NCBI GenBank assembly: GCA_002719395.1
Contig: PBHM01000009.1
Location: 7,797-46,338, forward strand
Length of the DNA stretch: 38,542 nucleotides
Direction: 5' to 3'
DNA from: Methanobacteriota archaeon
GTDB lineage: Archaea > Thermoplasmatota > Poseidoniia > Poseidoniales > Poseidoniaceae
Shown here: positions 22,959 through 30,357 of the stretch, one piece after another
How positions within the stretch are numbered: position 1 is the first letter of the stretch
Layout of the letters: every line of letters starts with the position of its first letter
Notes under the pieces: model-generated
The model's input: only the letters and a program-made list of their open reading frames with translations
Databases searched by the model: none
Told to the model about the DNA's origin: nothing
Position numbers and translations under genes: made by a program

Positions 22959-23368
22959 CAAAATTTCTCCTTAACCTCTGATTGAATCATATCGAACATG
23001 GTTCGAAATCCATTCGAACGACTTGGAGTCAACGAATTAAGTATTCCCATGTCAATGGCAAATTGAGGGGTTAATGAAAGGACAAATGCTGGAGACTTTC
23101 CATTCATTACAACGGACAATATTCCCATTAAACCCTGAACTATCTTTGCATCCGCTGCAGCTCTTGTATGCACCAAACCTTCTCGGTTTTCGACAACAAT
23201 ATGTGCTTGGGATTGGCAGCCTCTGACAAGATTATCATCGCTCCATTCATCAAGCGTTAATTCATCAACCTCATCTGCGAAATCCATAAGCAACTCAAGA
23301 CGTTCCATCGCATCATCTATCTCAGAGAATTCTTCAACTAATTCCTCCAAAGAAGGTGTGTCATTCAT
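22958..23368 (-). CDS. sufE: SufE, sulfur acceptor for SufS
   Basis: SufE takes persulfide sulfur from SufS and hands it to SufB. The 136-residue product has the conserved acceptor Cys in LVRGCQSQAHI (C51, the same number as E. coli SufE), then ADAKIVQGLMGILSVVMNGKSP. The ATG at 23368 overlaps the sufS stop as ATGA and follows GGAGAGG. A much longer in-frame opening up to 23497 lies inside sufS and lacks family sequence, so it is rejected. Tight coupling with sufS and the MIP18-type gene supports one operon. Confidence 0.92.
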   Translation of the reverse strand: MNDTPSLEELVEEFSEIDDAMERLELLMDFADEVDELTLDEWSDDNLVRGCQSQAHIVVENREGLVHTRAAADAKIVQGLMGILSVVMNGKSPAFVLSLTPQFAIDMGILNSLTPSRSNGFRTMFDMIQSEVKEKF

Positions 23369-24561
23369 GAGAACCTCTCCACAATGCTTTCGATGGTCGA
23401 TAACATCGTTTCCACTTCTTCTTGTGTATTGTATAGGTAGAATGAGGCCCGCAAAGTCCCGTTGACTCCAAGTTTTTCCATGAGCGGTTGCGCACAATGA
23501 TGTCCAGTTCTCAATGCGATGCCACGAGCATCGAGCAATCTTGCCATGTCTTCAGGATGCACCTTATCATGAATAAAGGATACTACAGCAGAATCACCAT
23601 CAGTGTGCTGACCAAAAACGGTCATGCCTGGTATTGCTCTCAACCGATTTGCGGTGTGTCTTGCCATATCCAATAACCTTTCGTGTTCAAATTGCAAATC
23701 GATCTTGGAGAGCCAATTTATCGCTGCGTCCCATCCAACTGCCTCTGCAATCTTGGGCGTCCCTGCCTCAAATTTATGTTCATTTTTCTGATAAGTCGAG
23801 CCTTCTAAAGTGACGGTTTCAATCATATCTCCCCCTCCCATGAAAGGTTCCATTTCCAGAAAAGTTCCTGGCGAAACCAACAAACAACCAATTCCGGTTG
23901 GGCCACACATTTTGTGAGCACTGCAGGCAAGGAAATCAATATTCATTGAAGTAAAATCAATCCTTGAATGAGGAACAGCTTGTGCAGCGTCGATGAGAAC
24001 TTTGGCACCGTGCTTTTTGGATATACTTACGATTTCTTCTACTGGGTTTCTGGCCCCCAATACATTGCTTGTATGAACGAAGCAAACAAGTTTTACACCT
24101 TCCATAGATGCCCTGAGCAATTCCATATCGAGCGTGTGATCCTCGGCTACGGGCACATAACGTAATTCCACACCTATCTCTCGAGATAACATCTGCCAAG
24201 GGACAATATCACTATGATGTTCCATCTCTGTAAGTAGAACAACATCTCCCTTGTTCAGATTATGTTTTCCCCATGCATGAGCTGCTAAGTTAATCGCTTC
24301 TGTGGTACCGCTTGTAAAAATGACTTTTTCTGCGCTAAACCATTTTCGTAGGTTTTCTCTACAGGATTCATATGCTTCTGTTGACTCTCCAGCAAGAGTA
24401 TGAACCGCCCGATGAACATTGGCATTCATCGATTGATAATAATCGGTCATCGCATCGATGACTACCTTTGGTTTCTGAGTTGTTGCGGCATTATCGAAAT
24501 AGATAAGTGAACGTCCATTCACTTCTCGCTGAAGAATAGGGAAATCATCTCTGATAGCCAT
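23365..24561 (-). CDS. sufS: SufS cysteine desulfurase
   Basis: A PLP-dependent group II cysteine desulfurase that turns cysteine into alanine and an enzyme persulfide. Counting from ATG 24561 (398 residues), IRDDFPILQREVNG and FDNAATTQKP open the protein, TEMEHHSDIVPW holds the PLP-stacking His, VLIDAAQAVPH the pyridine-binding Asp, ACSAHKMCGPTG the Schiff-base lysine (K217) and RTGHHCAQPL the active-site Cys (C356). The start 24561 makes a TAATG overlap with sufD and has GGTGAT before it; ATG 24576 would add five residues. Sulfur goes on to SufE and the SufBCD scaffold. Confidence 0.94.
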   Translation of the reverse strand: MAIRDDFPILQREVNGRSLIYFDNAATTQKPKVVIDAMTDYYQSMNANVHRAVHTLAGESTEAYESCRENLRKWFSAEKVIFTSGTTEAINLAAHAWGKHNLNKGDVVLLTEMEHHSDIVPWQMLSREIGVELRYVPVAEDHTLDMELLRASMEGVKLVCFVHTSNVLGARNPVEEIVSISKKHGAKVLIDAAQAVPHSRIDFTSMNIDFLACSAHKMCGPTGIGCLLVSPGTFLEMEPFMGGGDMIETVTLEGSTYQKNEHKFEAGTPKIAEAVGWDAAINWLSKIDLQFEHERLLDMARHTANRLRAIPGMTVFGQHTDGDSAVVSFIHDKVHPEDMARLLDARGIALRTGHHCAQPLMEKLGVNGTLRASFYLYNTQEEVETMLSTIESIVERFS

Positions 24562-25577
24562 TAAATCACCAGACATTGTAAATGCAAAGTTAACTCATCT
24601 CTCAAAAAAGCGACCACTTCTTTGTTACGAATTTCTCTAAAAGCGTCGATAAGAAAACCCTCTGCAATAAGAGCAACTGCTTCTTCTTGATTCATTCCTC
24701 GACTCATCAGGTAATGGATTTGAGAGGGATTTACTGGTGCTGATGCAGCCCCGTGCCCTGCTTTTACATCATCTGCCAAGACCTCAAGTTCTGGAATAGA
24801 TTCCGCACGAGCCTTTTCTGAGAGGAGAAGGTTTCTAAAAACTTGATTTGCATCGCTCTGATGACATTGCTCATCTATGGTAAGCATTCCAGTTCCAATG
24901 CTTCTGGATGCACCATCGCATGCAGCATGTGAGACCAACGTTGAATTCGTATTTGGGGAAGCATGGTGAATTTCAAAATGGTGGTCATCATGCCTTTTTT
25001 CACTACCATAAATAGCAGCACCTACGGCACATTCAGACCCTTTATATGCTAAATTAATTCGAACATCTGATTTGCAGGTGAGACCCCCTCCAGATAGCGT
25101 TGCATGTTCAATTCGAGCGTCTCGGTGAATGACCCAATCTTCGCTTCTCAAAAAAACCGAATCAGAGGTGAGTTGATTGACAAATCCAACGCTTAGACAT
25201 CCTCCAGAGAGTACTTCTCCATGAATTCGAAGGCCAACCCAACCTGCTTCTCCAACTAAACGAATCATCAGTTGAGCGTGTCCTTTTGCGACAATTTTCA
25301 AAGAAGAAGCAGTGATATGACCAGATGCTTTTACATCAATAGTCATGCATTCATTTGCGATGACAAGTTCTTCTCCTTTACTCATTTCATGTAAAAGAGA
25401 CCTTGATATTTCTTCGCTTGCAGGCAATTCTGAAGGAATTAATTCTGCCCCAGTAATACTCATTTGTCTTGATTCTGGAACATCGTGAGGCTCTGTAGGG
25501 TGCATTCTTTTCCAAGGCGTATAGCGCCATAGGTGTTCAGAAAGATGAGGTATGAGAATTTCAGAATGAGATTTCAA
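24561..25577 (-). CDS. sufD: SufD, SufBCD scaffold subunit
   Basis: A 338-residue SufB/SufD-family protein that pairs with SufB and SufC in the Fe-S assembly scaffold. The N-terminal segment [11 protein letters not shown] matches the RYTP region of SufD; the middle is the parallel beta-helix with [20 protein letters not shown]; the end has [34 protein letters not shown], the conserved SufB/D C-terminal helix. The start is TTG 25577, which overlaps the sufB stop as TTGA and follows GGAGGG at nine bases; the next ATG would remove the conserved N-terminus. This TTG is one of several non-ATG starts in the window. Confidence 0.91.
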
Positions 25578-26974
25578 CCGATGGAACCCTCCATCTCTAA
25601 CTCAAGGAGCCGGTTTAATTCAACGGCATATTCCATTGGCAGTTCACGTGTGAATGGTTCAAAAAATCCATTGACAATCATTGCCATGGCTTCATCTTCA
25701 GCATGACCTCTACTCATCAAGTAAAACAACTGATCGTCGCTTACCTTTGACACGCTTGCTTCATGCTCTAAATCCGATGATGCATTTCCAATTTCCATGG
25801 TTGGATAGGTGTCAGATTGACTGTCTTCATCCAACAAAAGTGCATCACAGACGACCTTTGAACGACAGTTCTTGGCTTTTGGAGATACTTTTAGTAGGCC
25901 TCTGTAAGACGACCTTCCACCATACTTCGAAATTGATTTTGACAAAATGTTTGAAGTTGTATTCGAGGCCAAGTGGTGAACTTTTGCTCCAGCATCTTGG
26001 TGTTGCCCCTTTCCTGCATAAGCAACGGAAATCACTTCAGCATGGGCTCCCTCTCCTTTCAATATAACAGCGGGATACTTCATTGTCAATTTTGAACCGA
26101 TGTTTCCATCTACCCACTCTATCACAGCATCCTCGTGTGCTATTCCCCTTTTCGTTACCAAATTGTAGACATTTGCCGACCAATTCTGAACGGTTGAGTA
26201 ACGAATTTTTGCACCTGGTAAAGCAATTAATTCCACCACTGCAGAGTGCAGACTTTCAGTTGAATAATTTGGAGCCGTACATCCCTCTACATAATGAATG
26301 GAACTACCTTCGTCAGCAATAATCAACGTACGTTCAAATTGACCCATATTTTTCGCATTAATTCTGAAATATGCCTGCACTGGCATGGTAACATGGACTC
26401 CTTTAGGAACATAAATGAATGATCCTCCGGACCATACAGCTGTGTTGAGGGCTGAAAACTTGTTATCCGAATAAGGCACCACTGAACCAAAATATTTCTT
26501 GACTATTTCCGGATGTTCCTTAAGACCTGAATCCATGTCAAAGAAAAGAACTCCCTGAGAGGTTAGGTCTTCTCGGATAGAGTGATAAACAGCCTCCGAT
26601 TCATATTGCGCAGTTACTCCACCGAGCCATTTTTGTTCAGCCTCTGGAATACCCAAGCGGTCGAAGGTTCGTTTGATTTCTTCTGGAACATCATCCCAAT
26701 CACGTTCTGTTCCTTCACTCGAACGAAGGAAATACGTTACTGCCTCAAAATCAATCGATTTTAGCATACCTGTGTTTCCCCAATCAGGCATTGGTCTTTC
26801 GATAAAATGCTTGTAAGCCTTGAGCCTTATTTCAGTCATCCATTCGGGTTCATCCTTAAGAGCTGAAATATCTCTAACGACTTGTTCAGACAATCCCTTA
26901 TCAAACCGTATGGTAGCGTTTTCTGAGTCATGAAAGCCGTACTTGTAGTCACCAATTACATCATCTTGAGTCAT
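25574..26974 (-). CDS. sufB: SufB, Fe-S cluster scaffold
   Basis: SufB is the scaffold on which the nascent Fe-S cluster is built with sulfur from SufE. The 466-residue product is of usual length and has [20 protein letters not shown], the [11 protein letters not shown] stretch with a conserved Cys, the beta-helix [35 protein letters not shown] and [18 protein letters not shown]. The ATG at 26974 overlaps the sufC stop as ATGA and has a near-perfect GGAGGTGA ribosome binding site inside the end of sufC. SufB and SufD are distinct here, as in bacterial sufBCD operons. Confidence 0.95.
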
Positions 26975-27729
26975 GTCTTCACCTCCGACTGTGGTTCGAG
27001 CCAGTCATAACCGTTGGCTTCTAATTTATGAGCGAGATCAGGACCACCAGATTTTACAAAACCTCCGGCAATCATTGCATGAACATAATTCGGTTTTACA
27101 TAATCAAGCAAACGCTGATAGTGAGTAATTACAAGACATGCTGAATCTTCGAGCACGCTGTTAATGCCTTCTGAAACAACTTTCAGAGCATCAATGTCCA
27201 ATCCAGAGTCGGTTTCGTCAAGGATGATCAACGAAGGTTCCAAAAGTAGTAATTGCAATATTTCCAGCCGCTTTTTTTCGCCACCAGAAAATCCATCGTT
27301 TACGTAGCGAGATAGGAATGATTTGTCCATGTCAAGCATTGCCATTTTCTTAGATAACAATTTACGGAATTCCCGTGCACTAGGCGCATGTTCTCCTTTG
27401 ATGCTGTTGACCGATTTTCTCAAAAACGTACCAACTTGTACTCCTGGAATCACGCTAGGATACTGGAAAGAGAGGAAGATGCCTGATCTGGCCCGCTCAT
27501 ACACTTCCATTTCAAGCAAAGATTTCCCCTGATAAACGATTGAACCCGAAGTGACCTGATAATCAGGATGTCCCATGAGTACATTTGCGAGGGTTGATTT
27601 TCCTGAACCATTTCTGCCCATGATTGCATGAATTTCCCCCTTGTTGATGGTCAAATTTAGGCCTTGTATGATCTCAACATCATCAACACTCACGTGCAGG
27701 TCGTTGATTTCAAGCACTACATCGGCCAT
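26971..27729 (-). CDS. sufC: SufC, ATPase of the SufBCD complex
   Basis: SufC is a soluble ABC-type ATPase that drives changes in the SufB-SufD scaffold. The product (252 residues from ATG 27729) shows Walker [10 protein letters not shown] (38-46), the Q-loop [12 protein letters not shown], the signature [15 protein letters not shown], Walker [13 protein letters not shown] and the H-loop [12 protein letters not shown], all typical of SufC. ATG 27729 matches family length and follows GGGATT; a GTG at 27774 would add 15 residues and read through an inverted repeat. It is the first gene of the sufC-B-D-S-E-MIP18 operon. Confidence 0.94.
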
Positions 27730-27815
27730 GCTAATCCCACGCGATTCACCCTTATGAATCACCGTATTGTCCACTGGAGGGCAAGACTTGAATTATCGCC
27801 GCTGTAGCCCACTAC
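27730..27815. promoter_or_regulatory. Divergent promoter region of suf operon and nfu-like gene, with inverted repeat
   Basis: This 86-base gap separates two Fe-S assembly units. It contains a perfect 6-base inverted repeat, GATTCA at 27743-27748 and TGAATC at 27755-27760, spaced by six bases and 14-31 bases upstream of the sufC ATG. Its place fits an operator near the suf start site, but no regulator is encoded nearby. Short repeats of this size can occur by chance. Confidence 0.35.
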
Positions 27816-28253
27816 ATGGATGACGACCTTGTTGCCAAATATCGGGCGGAAGCGGAAGCGGCAATGAGTCAAGAATCTGAGCGTCGAAGACAGGAATATA
27901 TCGATCCTGTTGAAGAGGACCGTCTTCGAAATCTCTCTCTTTACGACGTTGATGATTTAATCCCCGCACTCATGGCAAGACTCGGCGATGTTCGTCTTGC
28001 GCTTGATGGCCACGGAGGCGGGATTGAAATCGTTTCAAGAGTGAAAACCGAAGATGGACTTGACCTTGTGTTGGATCTTTCTGGGGCTTGTTTGGCTTGT
28101 GGAGCGGCTCCTGGTACCCTTGAAGGCATCAAATCAGATTTAGAGAATGATAGTCAAATCTCTCGCATCCGTTTCTCCAAGAAATTACTGCAAACATTTG
28201 ACGAAATAAGTCGTGAATTTGTTGAGAAACACAGTCAAGTAGAATTCGTTTGA
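27816..28253 (+). CDS. NifU C-terminal-domain (Nfu) Fe-S carrier protein
   Basis: A 145-residue protein with a charged helical N-terminus (about 1-40) and a NifU C-terminal domain. The domain has ALDGHGGGIEIV and the cluster-binding CxxC in SGACLACGAAPGTLEGI (C92, C95). Nfu proteins carry an assembled [4Fe-4S] cluster from the scaffold to target enzymes. The N-terminal extension is not a known domain. It is divergent from sufC and shares the short promoter region, so co-regulation is likely. The ATG at 27816 lacks a clear ribosome binding site, which suggests a leaderless or short-leader transcript. Confidence 0.88.
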   Translation: MDDDLVAKYRAEAEAAMSQESERRRQEYIDPVEEDRLRNLSLYDVDDLIPALMARLGDVRLALDGHGGGIEIVSRVKTEDGLDLVLDLSGACLACGAAPGTLEGIKSDLENDSQISRIRFSKKLLQTFDEISREFVEKHSQVEFV

Positions 28254-28290: not shown

Positions 28291-30357
28291 ATGGCTGCAT
28301 GGAATATTCAAGAGCGGCCTGCCCCCGAACCCTGTAAAGAAAATGATACGGGCGTCTTTGAAATTACCTGCAGAGATGGGAGAGCAAGACTAGGGAAAAT
28401 TCATACTCAACACGGCATTGTCAACACGCCATGCTTACTTCCCGTCATTAATCCAAACATACAAACCATTTCGCCTCAAGATATGTGGTCCGATTATGGC
28501 ATTGAGGCACTCATCACAAACTCTTACGTTATCTGGAAGCATGAACATCTCAAAACAAAGGCGCTTGCTGAGGGAGTGCATGCTCTCTTGAATTATCCTG
28601 GTGTCATCATGACCGATAGTGGAACATTTCAATCCTACATGTACGGCGATGTGGAGGTCGGAGTCGAAGAGATTATTGCTTTCCAAAGAGACATAAGCGT
28701 TGACATTGGCACCATGCTTGATGTTTTTACTCGACCTGATATGGATGAAAACGAGGTAGAATTCGCTGTCGAAGAAACACACAATCGAGCTAAAATTTCC
28801 ATCCAGACAGCCAAAGGCATGATGCTCAATGGACCAATACAAGGAGGTATTTTTCCTGAGTTGAGAAGGAAAAGCGCCCGACTCATGGGAGAAGAGACTT
28901 TCACCGTCCATCCAATTGGGGGCATCGTTCCAATTATGGAGCAACACATGTACGAAAAACTTGCAGAAATTATTCTCGAAACAAAACCATACCTTCCTGC
29001 AAATCGTCCAACCCATCTCTTCGGGTGTGGTCATCCGATGCTATTTCCGATGGCGATTGCTCTTGGTATCGATTTATTTGATAGCGCGGCTTATGCACTA
29101 TTTGCTCGAGATGACCGGTTACTTTGCCCTTGGGGCACTGAGAAATTTGACCAAATAGTCGAATGGCCAATCACCGTTCCTTGCGTGCAATCAATAACAC
29201 CAAAGCAAGTCAGAGAAATGAGCAAAGAAAGGAAAACTGAAATCCTTGCAAGATTTAATCTCGAAGTTACTTTGGCTGAACTTTCTCGCTGTCGGCAAGC
29301 TGTTAGAGATGGACGCATTTGGGACCTCGCAAGAATGCGCAGCAGGCAACATCCTGCCTTGAAAAAAGCATGGGAATTCATCGAAAAACAACAAAAACAA
29401 TGGATTATCTCAAGCCAAAATATCTCCAACCAAGGAGGGTGGATGTATGAAAATGGGTGCGAAAAATCAGATCCAAGAATTATCAAGTCTTTGGAAAATT
29501 TACATCAAAATTGGCGAAGTACCACCCATGAAAAATGTATCATTTTTTACGGTGCACCTAGCCCATGGCGAAATAAATTAAATGACATAATTTTGAAAAT
29601 CAGAGGGATAAATGAAAACATACTCATCCTCATATCTACACCAATTGGACTTATTCCATACAGCATCGAGGACCTCCATCCATTTGCCCACATAGAAGCA
29701 GAAGATGAAAAGTGGACTAATCCGCCGGAAATGGAATTTATTGACCAGCAGTTAATCGCCCTCGGCATTGACTCGAAAAGTCATTTGATCGTTGATATGA
29801 ACCACGAGCACATGTATGCAAAAATCTGCGACTATCTCGGCAAGGAAATCCAAAAATCTGCGCATAGAGATGTATTGTTTAGGGAACAATTGACAGATAA
29901 GATGCAACTATTTTTTGGTGTAGAACCAGAGACATCTGCAGATTTAATTTCTGAGGTCTCTTTCATAGTAGGCGGCACGGGACGGGTTCGGAATGTACTT
30001 GACAAAGAAGGTAACCATCTTTTCAGCCCTAGTTTGACCAACGGAAGCCTTGCTGCAACAGCCTTGGGAGGTCTTTGGCTCTCGAAGCAAAAACCCCGTC
30101 CTCCTGGTGTGGTCGTGGATGAACATGCTGAACCCTTTGTCAGGAAAGGTCGAAACGTATTCCACGGGTTTATTTTGTCTGTCGACAAAGAAGTAAAACA
30201 AGGCGACATATGCTTAATTTACAACCAAAGTGGCGAATATATTGCAATTGGGAAAGCGGAATGTGAAGCAACTGAGATGACTTTGTTCAAGAAAGGAATC
30301 GCAGTAAGAGTAAGAGATGGATTGAAAAACGTCGAGGGACATGATTCAAAGACTTGA
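28291..30357 (+). CDS. tgtA: tRNA-guanine(15) transglycosylase, archaeosine type, with zinc site lost
   Basis: Archaeal TGT swaps guanine-15 in the tRNA D-loop for preQ0 on the way to archaeosine. The 688-residue protein has the catalytic barrel (MTDSGTFQSYMYGDVEV with D109; GIDLFDSAAYAL with the nucleophile Asp, about D264), a middle ArcS-related region (IPYSIEDLHPFAHIE; RVRNVLDKEG) and a C-terminal PUA domain (VVVDEHAEPFVRKGRNVF to GIAVRVRDGLK). The zinc site expected as PCxCxxC plus LHNL is changed: the sequence reads VPCVQSITPKQV, leaving one Cys (C298), and ARFNLE puts Phe322 in place of the His. The spacing is four residues shorter than the canonical segment. GAGGAAG before the ATG supports the start. 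The gene overlaps no neighbour upstream and runs into the ABC cassette. Confidence 0.9.
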   Translation: MAAWNIQERPAPEPCKENDTGVFEITCRDGRARLGKIHTQHGIVNTPCLLPVINPNIQTISPQDMWSDYGIEALITNSYVIWKHEHLKTKALAEGVHALLNYPGVIMTDSGTFQSYMYGDVEVGVEEIIAFQRDISVDIGTMLDVFTRPDMDENEVEFAVEETHNRAKISIQTAKGMMLNGPIQGGIFPELRRKSARLMGEETFTVHPIGGIVPIMEQHMYEKLAEIILETKPYLPANRPTHLFGCGHPMLFPMAIALGIDLFDSAAYALFARDDRLLCPWGTEKFDQIVEWPITVPCVQSITPKQVREMSKERKTEILARFNLEVTLAELSRCRQAVRDGRIWDLARMRSRQHPALKKAWEFIEKQQKQWIISSQNISNQGGWMYENGCEKSDPRIIKSLENLHQNWRSTTHEKCIIFYGAPSPWRNKLNDIILKIRGINENILILISTPIGLIPYSIEDLHPFAHIEAEDEKWTNPPEMEFIDQQLIALGIDSKSHLIVDMNHEHMYAKICDYLGKEIQKSAHRDVLFREQLTDKMQLFFGVEPETSADLISEVSFIVGGTGRVRNVLDKEGNHLFSPSLTNGSLAATALGGLWLSKQKPRPPGVVVDEHAEPFVRKGRNVFHGFILSVDKEVKQGDICLIYNQSGEYIAIGKAECEATEMTLFKKGIAVRVRDGLKNVEGHDSKT

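Follow-up and report, generated by a model that had tools for sequence, protein, structure and literature searches.

The window, by which we mean the whole stretch of 38,542 nucleotides that was analysed, carries on its + strand an open reading frame (28291-30357) of 688 residues that encodes a full-length TgtA, the archaeosine tRNA-guanine transglycosylase (ArcTGT). The protein reached 456.8 bits with the equivalog model TIGR00432, for a cut-off of 350, and matched PF01702 (4.6e-72) and the PUA domain (4.4e-17), the latter sitting after the archaeal C-terminal region. A tree built without the zinc loop placed it among the TgtA proteins of its phylum. It scored 94.4 bits with the ArcS equivalog NF040592, far from the cut-off of 440. 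One PF01702 gene was counted in the window genome, whose assembly is 77% complete; a second, zinc-bearing TGT was considered and rejected, as none was found in this assembly. The region directly upstream of tgtA (23365-28253) holds genes for a class V aminotransferase (SufS-like), two SufBD-core proteins, a SufC-like ATPase and a NifU-domain protein; the NifU gene lies on the same strand as tgtA and the SufS-like, SufBD-core and SufC-like genes on the opposite one. The features of tgtA are listed below, with the equivalent residues of Pyrococcus horikoshii ArcTGT (1IQ8).

28291..30357, + strand: tgtA, archaeosine tRNA-guanine transglycosylase (ArcTGT), predicted to be zinc-less (TIGR00432, PF01702, PUA, model compared with 1IQ8)
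28378..29355, + strand: TGT catalytic TIM-barrel domain, residues 30-355 (PF01702, profile positions 2-356 of 357 covered)
28615..28617, + strand: Asp109, general acid/base (D95 of 1IQ8), kept (MTDSG aligned; invariant column in alignment A2)
29080..29082, + strand: Asp264, catalytic nucleophile (D249 of 1IQ8), kept (LFDSA aligned; invariant column in alignment A2)
29170..29172, + strand: Ile294, replacing zinc ligand Cys279 (pairwise and multiple alignment)
29176..29178, + strand: Val296, replacing zinc ligand Cys281 (pairwise and multiple alignment)
29182..29184, + strand: Cys298, the sole Cys of the loop, opposite the non-ligand V283 of 1IQ8 (alignments)
29185..29187, + strand: Val299, replacing zinc ligand Cys284 (hydrophobic, V/I/L/F, in 62/62 loci of the order)
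29254..29256, + strand: Phe322, replacing zinc ligand His307 (pairwise and multiple alignment)
30109..30324, + strand: C-terminal PUA domain, residues 607-678 (PF01472, 62 bits)

The P. horikoshii enzyme (TgtA; 1IQ8, 1J2B), the best relative with a solved structure, shares with the window protein the domain order with a terminal PUA, a zinc loop that aligns without gaps and the same catalytic Asp pair. Both catalytic motifs (MTDSG and FDSA) were found, D109 falling opposite D95 and D264 opposite D249; an earlier note on this DNA had described the nucleophile and substrate-binding motifs as kept. Of the two features by which tRNA-guanine transglycosylases are usually recognised, the zinc domain is treated as one, and in 1IQ8 the site is made of C279, C281, C284 and H307. 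All four ligands are replaced in the window protein: the pairwise alignment gave C279 to I294, C281 to V296, C284 to V299 and H307 to F322, and the same replacements were reproduced in a MAFFT multiple alignment. Since IVVF stands where the CxCxxC...H pattern would give CCCH, we file the protein as a predicted zinc-less variant of the known enzyme TgtA. The segment reads ...EWPITVPCVQSITPKQVREMSKERKTEILARFNLE..., with a single Cys and a Phe at the position of the ligand His, and in this respect the earlier reading agrees with both the sequence and the 1IQ8 alignment. The same note had proposed that four residues were cleanly deleted. However, the alignment with 1IQ8 is gapless over query residues 231-363 and the 28 residues from C279 to H307 are also 28 from I294 to F322, so that the site was lost by substitution and not by deletion. 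The spacing of 24 reported previously had been counted from Cys298, which aligns with the non-ligand position V283 and is Ser, Ala or Thr in many relatives.

A sequencing error had been named as an observation that could overturn the loss. We rejected it as the cause of the missing ligands, as I, V, V and F recur at these positions in G054, the one further species of the genus that was found, and dN/dS is low. The two proteins are 86% identical, and dN/dS between the two genes was 0.09 over the gene, 0.06 over the TGT domain and 0.05 over residues 290-326, the last being a rough figure from 37 codons. The zinc loop is under strong purifying selection.

The TGT was extracted from 149 loci of Thermoplasmatota and the four ligand columns were read; the phyla beyond were represented by 1IQ8 and two Thermococcaceae loci. 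The order of the window comprises two families (f1 and f2), presumably the two families of Poseidoniales. The Cys triad was absent from all 62 loci of this order, covering all 22 genera, in contrast to 48 loci of other families that carry CCCH. The loss in the order is beyond chance, and it is lineage-wide, as the earlier note had suggested from the single sequence. The ligand His is kept in 26 of the 31 f2 loci, and Phe or Tyr occupies its position in 25 of the 31 f1 loci. The loss had also been presented as singular among TGTs, which did not hold: the Cys are likewise absent from families outside the class, namely f22 (Thermoplasmatales; 18/18 loci), f20, f29, f36, f44 and f18, and from two genera of the presumably MGIII-like family f3, which is split, g23 and g24 lacking the Cys in 11/11 loci and g25 showing CCCH in 3/3. 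About 30 other Thermoplasmatota families retain the zinc Cys (CCCH). Among named records (L157, L173, L174), Cuniculiplasma reads ISYH and Aciduliprofundum YSLH, and the methanogens of the phylum and the Thermococcaceae read CCCH. Aligning the window protein with Pyrococcus, Thermoplasmatales and Poseidoniales, a check that had been suggested for it, thus confirmed the ligand loss and, judged by sequence, the CxCxxC...H site is not universal in TgtA. The catalytic Asp pair was kept in all sampled loci whose motif aligned; in L078 alone, the second of the two motifs was unaligned. We take the f20 and f22 genomes to include Aciduliprofundum boonei, Thermoplasma acidophilum, T. volcanium and Ferroplasma acidiphilum, and we take G400, whose TgtA reads QSYH at the ligand positions, to be T. 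acidophilum, which also fits its family position. One genome (G250) carries two full-length TgtA; the zinc loop of one of them (L069, G250:C8:25232-27925) matches another genus (g13: L033, L090), and C8 is probably a contaminant contig.

The tree of TgtA was computed on 296 columns and 125 rows, with the zinc loop omitted. The proteins of the order formed one clade (SH-aLRT 100) and those of f22, f20, f29 and f36 another (SH-aLRT 96). Five changes of zinc state were needed, at least three of them forced by well-supported branches, the exact number being uncertain given a quick method and long branches. Very probably, the ancestor of the window's order lost the site, and several further independent losses took place elsewhere in Thermoplasmatota. 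We found no earlier description of this zinc loss in the open literature; the 2016 paper on T. acidophilum ArcTGT may mention it.

The residues that took the place of the ligands differ between clades. In f1 the columns are mostly hydrophobic or aromatic (I, M, V, L or F at 279; V, I, L or F at 284; F or Y at 307), giving for instance IVVF, IMIY and MMVY, while f2 follows a pattern of a hydrophobic residue, S/T, L and H. The f22 proteins have Ser at 281 and His at 307, with a W-S-P at 280-282 that is invariant in 18/18 loci, and g23 of f3 shows S/G/N, F, A/F and H. Every clade has a conserved replacement of its own, which speaks against plain decay. An AlphaFold model of the window protein, computed from a 33-row alignment, had a mean pLDDT of 91.5, with 95-97 over residues 291-330, and adopted the fold of 1IQ8 over its full length (TM 0.92 by target). 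The modelling that the earlier note had called for thus gave a confident zinc loop, and suggests that a metal-free loop is compatible with the fold, bearing in mind that AlphaFold models contain no metals and may simply reproduce a family fold. We propose that zinc serves to brace the C-terminal portion of the TGT domain and that packing has taken over this role. The loop has kept its length and would keep its fold, with hydrophobic or Ser/Thr side chains where the three Cys and the His used to be; in the family of the window a small packed core may sit where the metal would be. The enzyme would then exchange G15 of the tRNA for preQ0 by the usual double displacement, with Asp264 as nucleophile and Asp109 as acid/base.

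The window genome encodes an ArcS homologue, in which the PCx3KPYx2Sx2H motif is present, and also QueC. The score of the ArcS homologue was below the curated cut-off in every genome searched, G400 included. ArcS (TgtA2) is itself a distant homologue of TgtA in the same pathway, distinguished from the window protein by this motif and by the 94 against 440 bits of the equivalog comparison. Bacterial Tgt and the eukaryotic QTRT1/QTRT2 share the TIM-barrel TGT fold, but they retain the zinc domain that the window protein lacks (PMC6165067, PMC4425180), act on G34 and are devoid of the archaeal C-terminal domains. Functionally, the weightiest evidence is offered by a relative, T. acidophilum, in whose tRNA archaeosine was first found (PMC11298593). 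Its ArcTGT is a multisite enzyme, shown to be active on G13 and G15 (PMC6313347, citing Kawamura et al. 2016). The sequence that we attribute to it through G400 likewise lacks the three loop Cys, but it keeps a His at 307, its loop reads W-S-P-L where the window protein is hydrophobic at the ligand positions, and its loss is a separate one on the tree. If G400 is T. acidophilum, then the QSYH of this genome together with the activity of the T. acidophilum enzyme would mean that an ArcTGT devoid of the zinc site has already been proven functional. The premise that all characterised TGT enzymes hold zinc becomes doubtful on the same ground. The window protein is very likely an active ArcTGT without zinc, as had been suggested earlier; the kept Asp residues, the PUA domain, the ArcS partner, the purifying selection and the T. 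acidophilum parallel all point to activity, and the absence of metal and the packing brace are our reading of alignment and model. Since the zinc clasp has been lost across archaeal groups, presumably including the active T. acidophilum enzyme, we infer that zinc is a dispensable prop and not a necessity in ArcTGT.

Two rival explanations can be given for the cause of the loss, either of which fits an active zinc-free enzyme. The first, whose chances we put at about even, is that zinc is simply unneeded in the archaeal enzyme, so that the site decays at times and is repaired by local packing, with no benefit from saving zinc. In agreement with it, the site was lost several times independently, with other replacement residues from clade to clade and in unlike habitats, and the extra C-terminal domains of the archaeal enzyme may stabilise the protein. 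However, the replacements are conserved within clades (W-S-P in 18/18 f22 loci, a hydrophobic 284 in all 62 loci of the order), so that the loop cannot vary at will, and about 30 families have kept CCCH.

The second explanation, which we consider doubtful, is one of zinc economy: in surface-ocean Poseidoniia, dissolved zinc being scarce, the archaeosine pathway would have been made zinc-poor through both TgtA and QueC. QueC, the preQ0 synthase, of the window's order and of the MGIII-like g23 reads SSSD (variants SASD, SSTD and CSSD; G000:C7:60450-61130, i.e. L249, and L250-L254 and L280-L291), while the other QueC of the phylum read CCCC, including those of f10, f13, f14 and f18. The zinc-less form of the order scored about 120-157 bits with the QueC model versus 220-277 bits, and it grouped with the zinc-less QueC of Flavobacterium phage immuto and of marine viral contigs, not with the phylum's own QueC; the lower score and this grouping suggest that the order acquired its QueC by replacement from outside the phylum. 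The viral clade itself (L292-L302, L309, L310; IMG/VR contigs and Flavobacterium phage immuto) has SDSS for the zinc Cys and a loop insert. Within f3 the zinc states of the two proteins go together, g23 being zinc-less in both TgtA and QueC, and g25 showing CCCH in TgtA (L052, L102, L103; G018-G020) and CCCC in QueC (G016), seen in different genomes. The MGIII-like family may thus serve as a built-in control, one genus keeping both zinc sites and another having lost both. Surface-water Poseidoniales moreover carry a zinc transporter that is absent from the deep genera (PMC6461757).

Several observations weigh on the other side. A genome-wide purge of zinc was rejected, as the zinc Cys of the ribosomal ribbons S27e and L37ae are intact in Poseidoniales, and zinc economy is weakened by the same fact; the zinc bound by TgtA is also little compared with that of the ribosomes. 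In Thermoplasmatales, Aciduliprofundum, f29, f36, f44 and f18 the site of TgtA is lost but QueC is of the zinc type, and the acidophilic members of this set live elsewhere than in zinc-poor sea water. Because Thermoplasmatales pair a predicted zinc-less TgtA with a zinc QueC, scarcity in sea water cannot, as these sequences read, account in general for the loss in TgtA. The earlier suggestion of zinc saving in the ocean keeps some ground in the zinc-less QueC of the order and of g23, and loses it with the Thermoplasmatales and the ribosomal proteins. That marine Poseidoniia adapted to surface water poor in zinc by means of a zinc-reduced archaeosine pathway, with a QueC foreign to the phylum, is a tentative proposal, and we think it rather unlikely.

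A third alternative bears on the brace and not on the cause: another metal could hold the loop, or another set of Cys and His, the latter having been named in the earlier note itself as a way of refuting its reading. Three Cys are conserved in the TgtA proteins of the order, Cys15 (28333-28335), Cys246 (29026-29028) and Cys334 (29290-29292). The rest of the phylum has hardly any Cys at the positions of Cys15 and Cys334; that of Cys246, in HLFGCGHP, is shared by the zinc-less MGIII-like rows and by 15% of zinc-bearing rows. As candidate ligands they have their conservation in their favour, but all three are outside the loop, Cys246 belongs to the HLFGCGHP substrate motif and Cys334 lies 12 residues along helix 312-339. 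A scan of the columns of the order's TgtA found no loop column that gains a conserved Cys or His, and we regard such a set, or another metal, as very unlikely. That the protein has changed its function or is a dead paralogue, zinc loss being the sign of it in a family for which zinc binding counts as a hallmark (PMC6165067), is highly improbable given that it is the sole TGT gene found in its genome, that the catalytic residues are retained in all sampled loci with an aligned motif, that tgtA is under strong purifying selection and that an ArcS partner is encoded in the same genome.

We thus retain a probably active, zinc-free ArcTGT as the preferred reading. The repeated loss of the site within one phylum, with catalytic residues kept, would make the role of zinc testable through natural zinc-free enzymes, be it as a folding brace, at the dimer interface or in the tRNA platform. 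The parallel loss in QueC of the same marine lineages may, in addition, provide a concrete and falsifiable case of metal economy in abundant archaea of the ocean.
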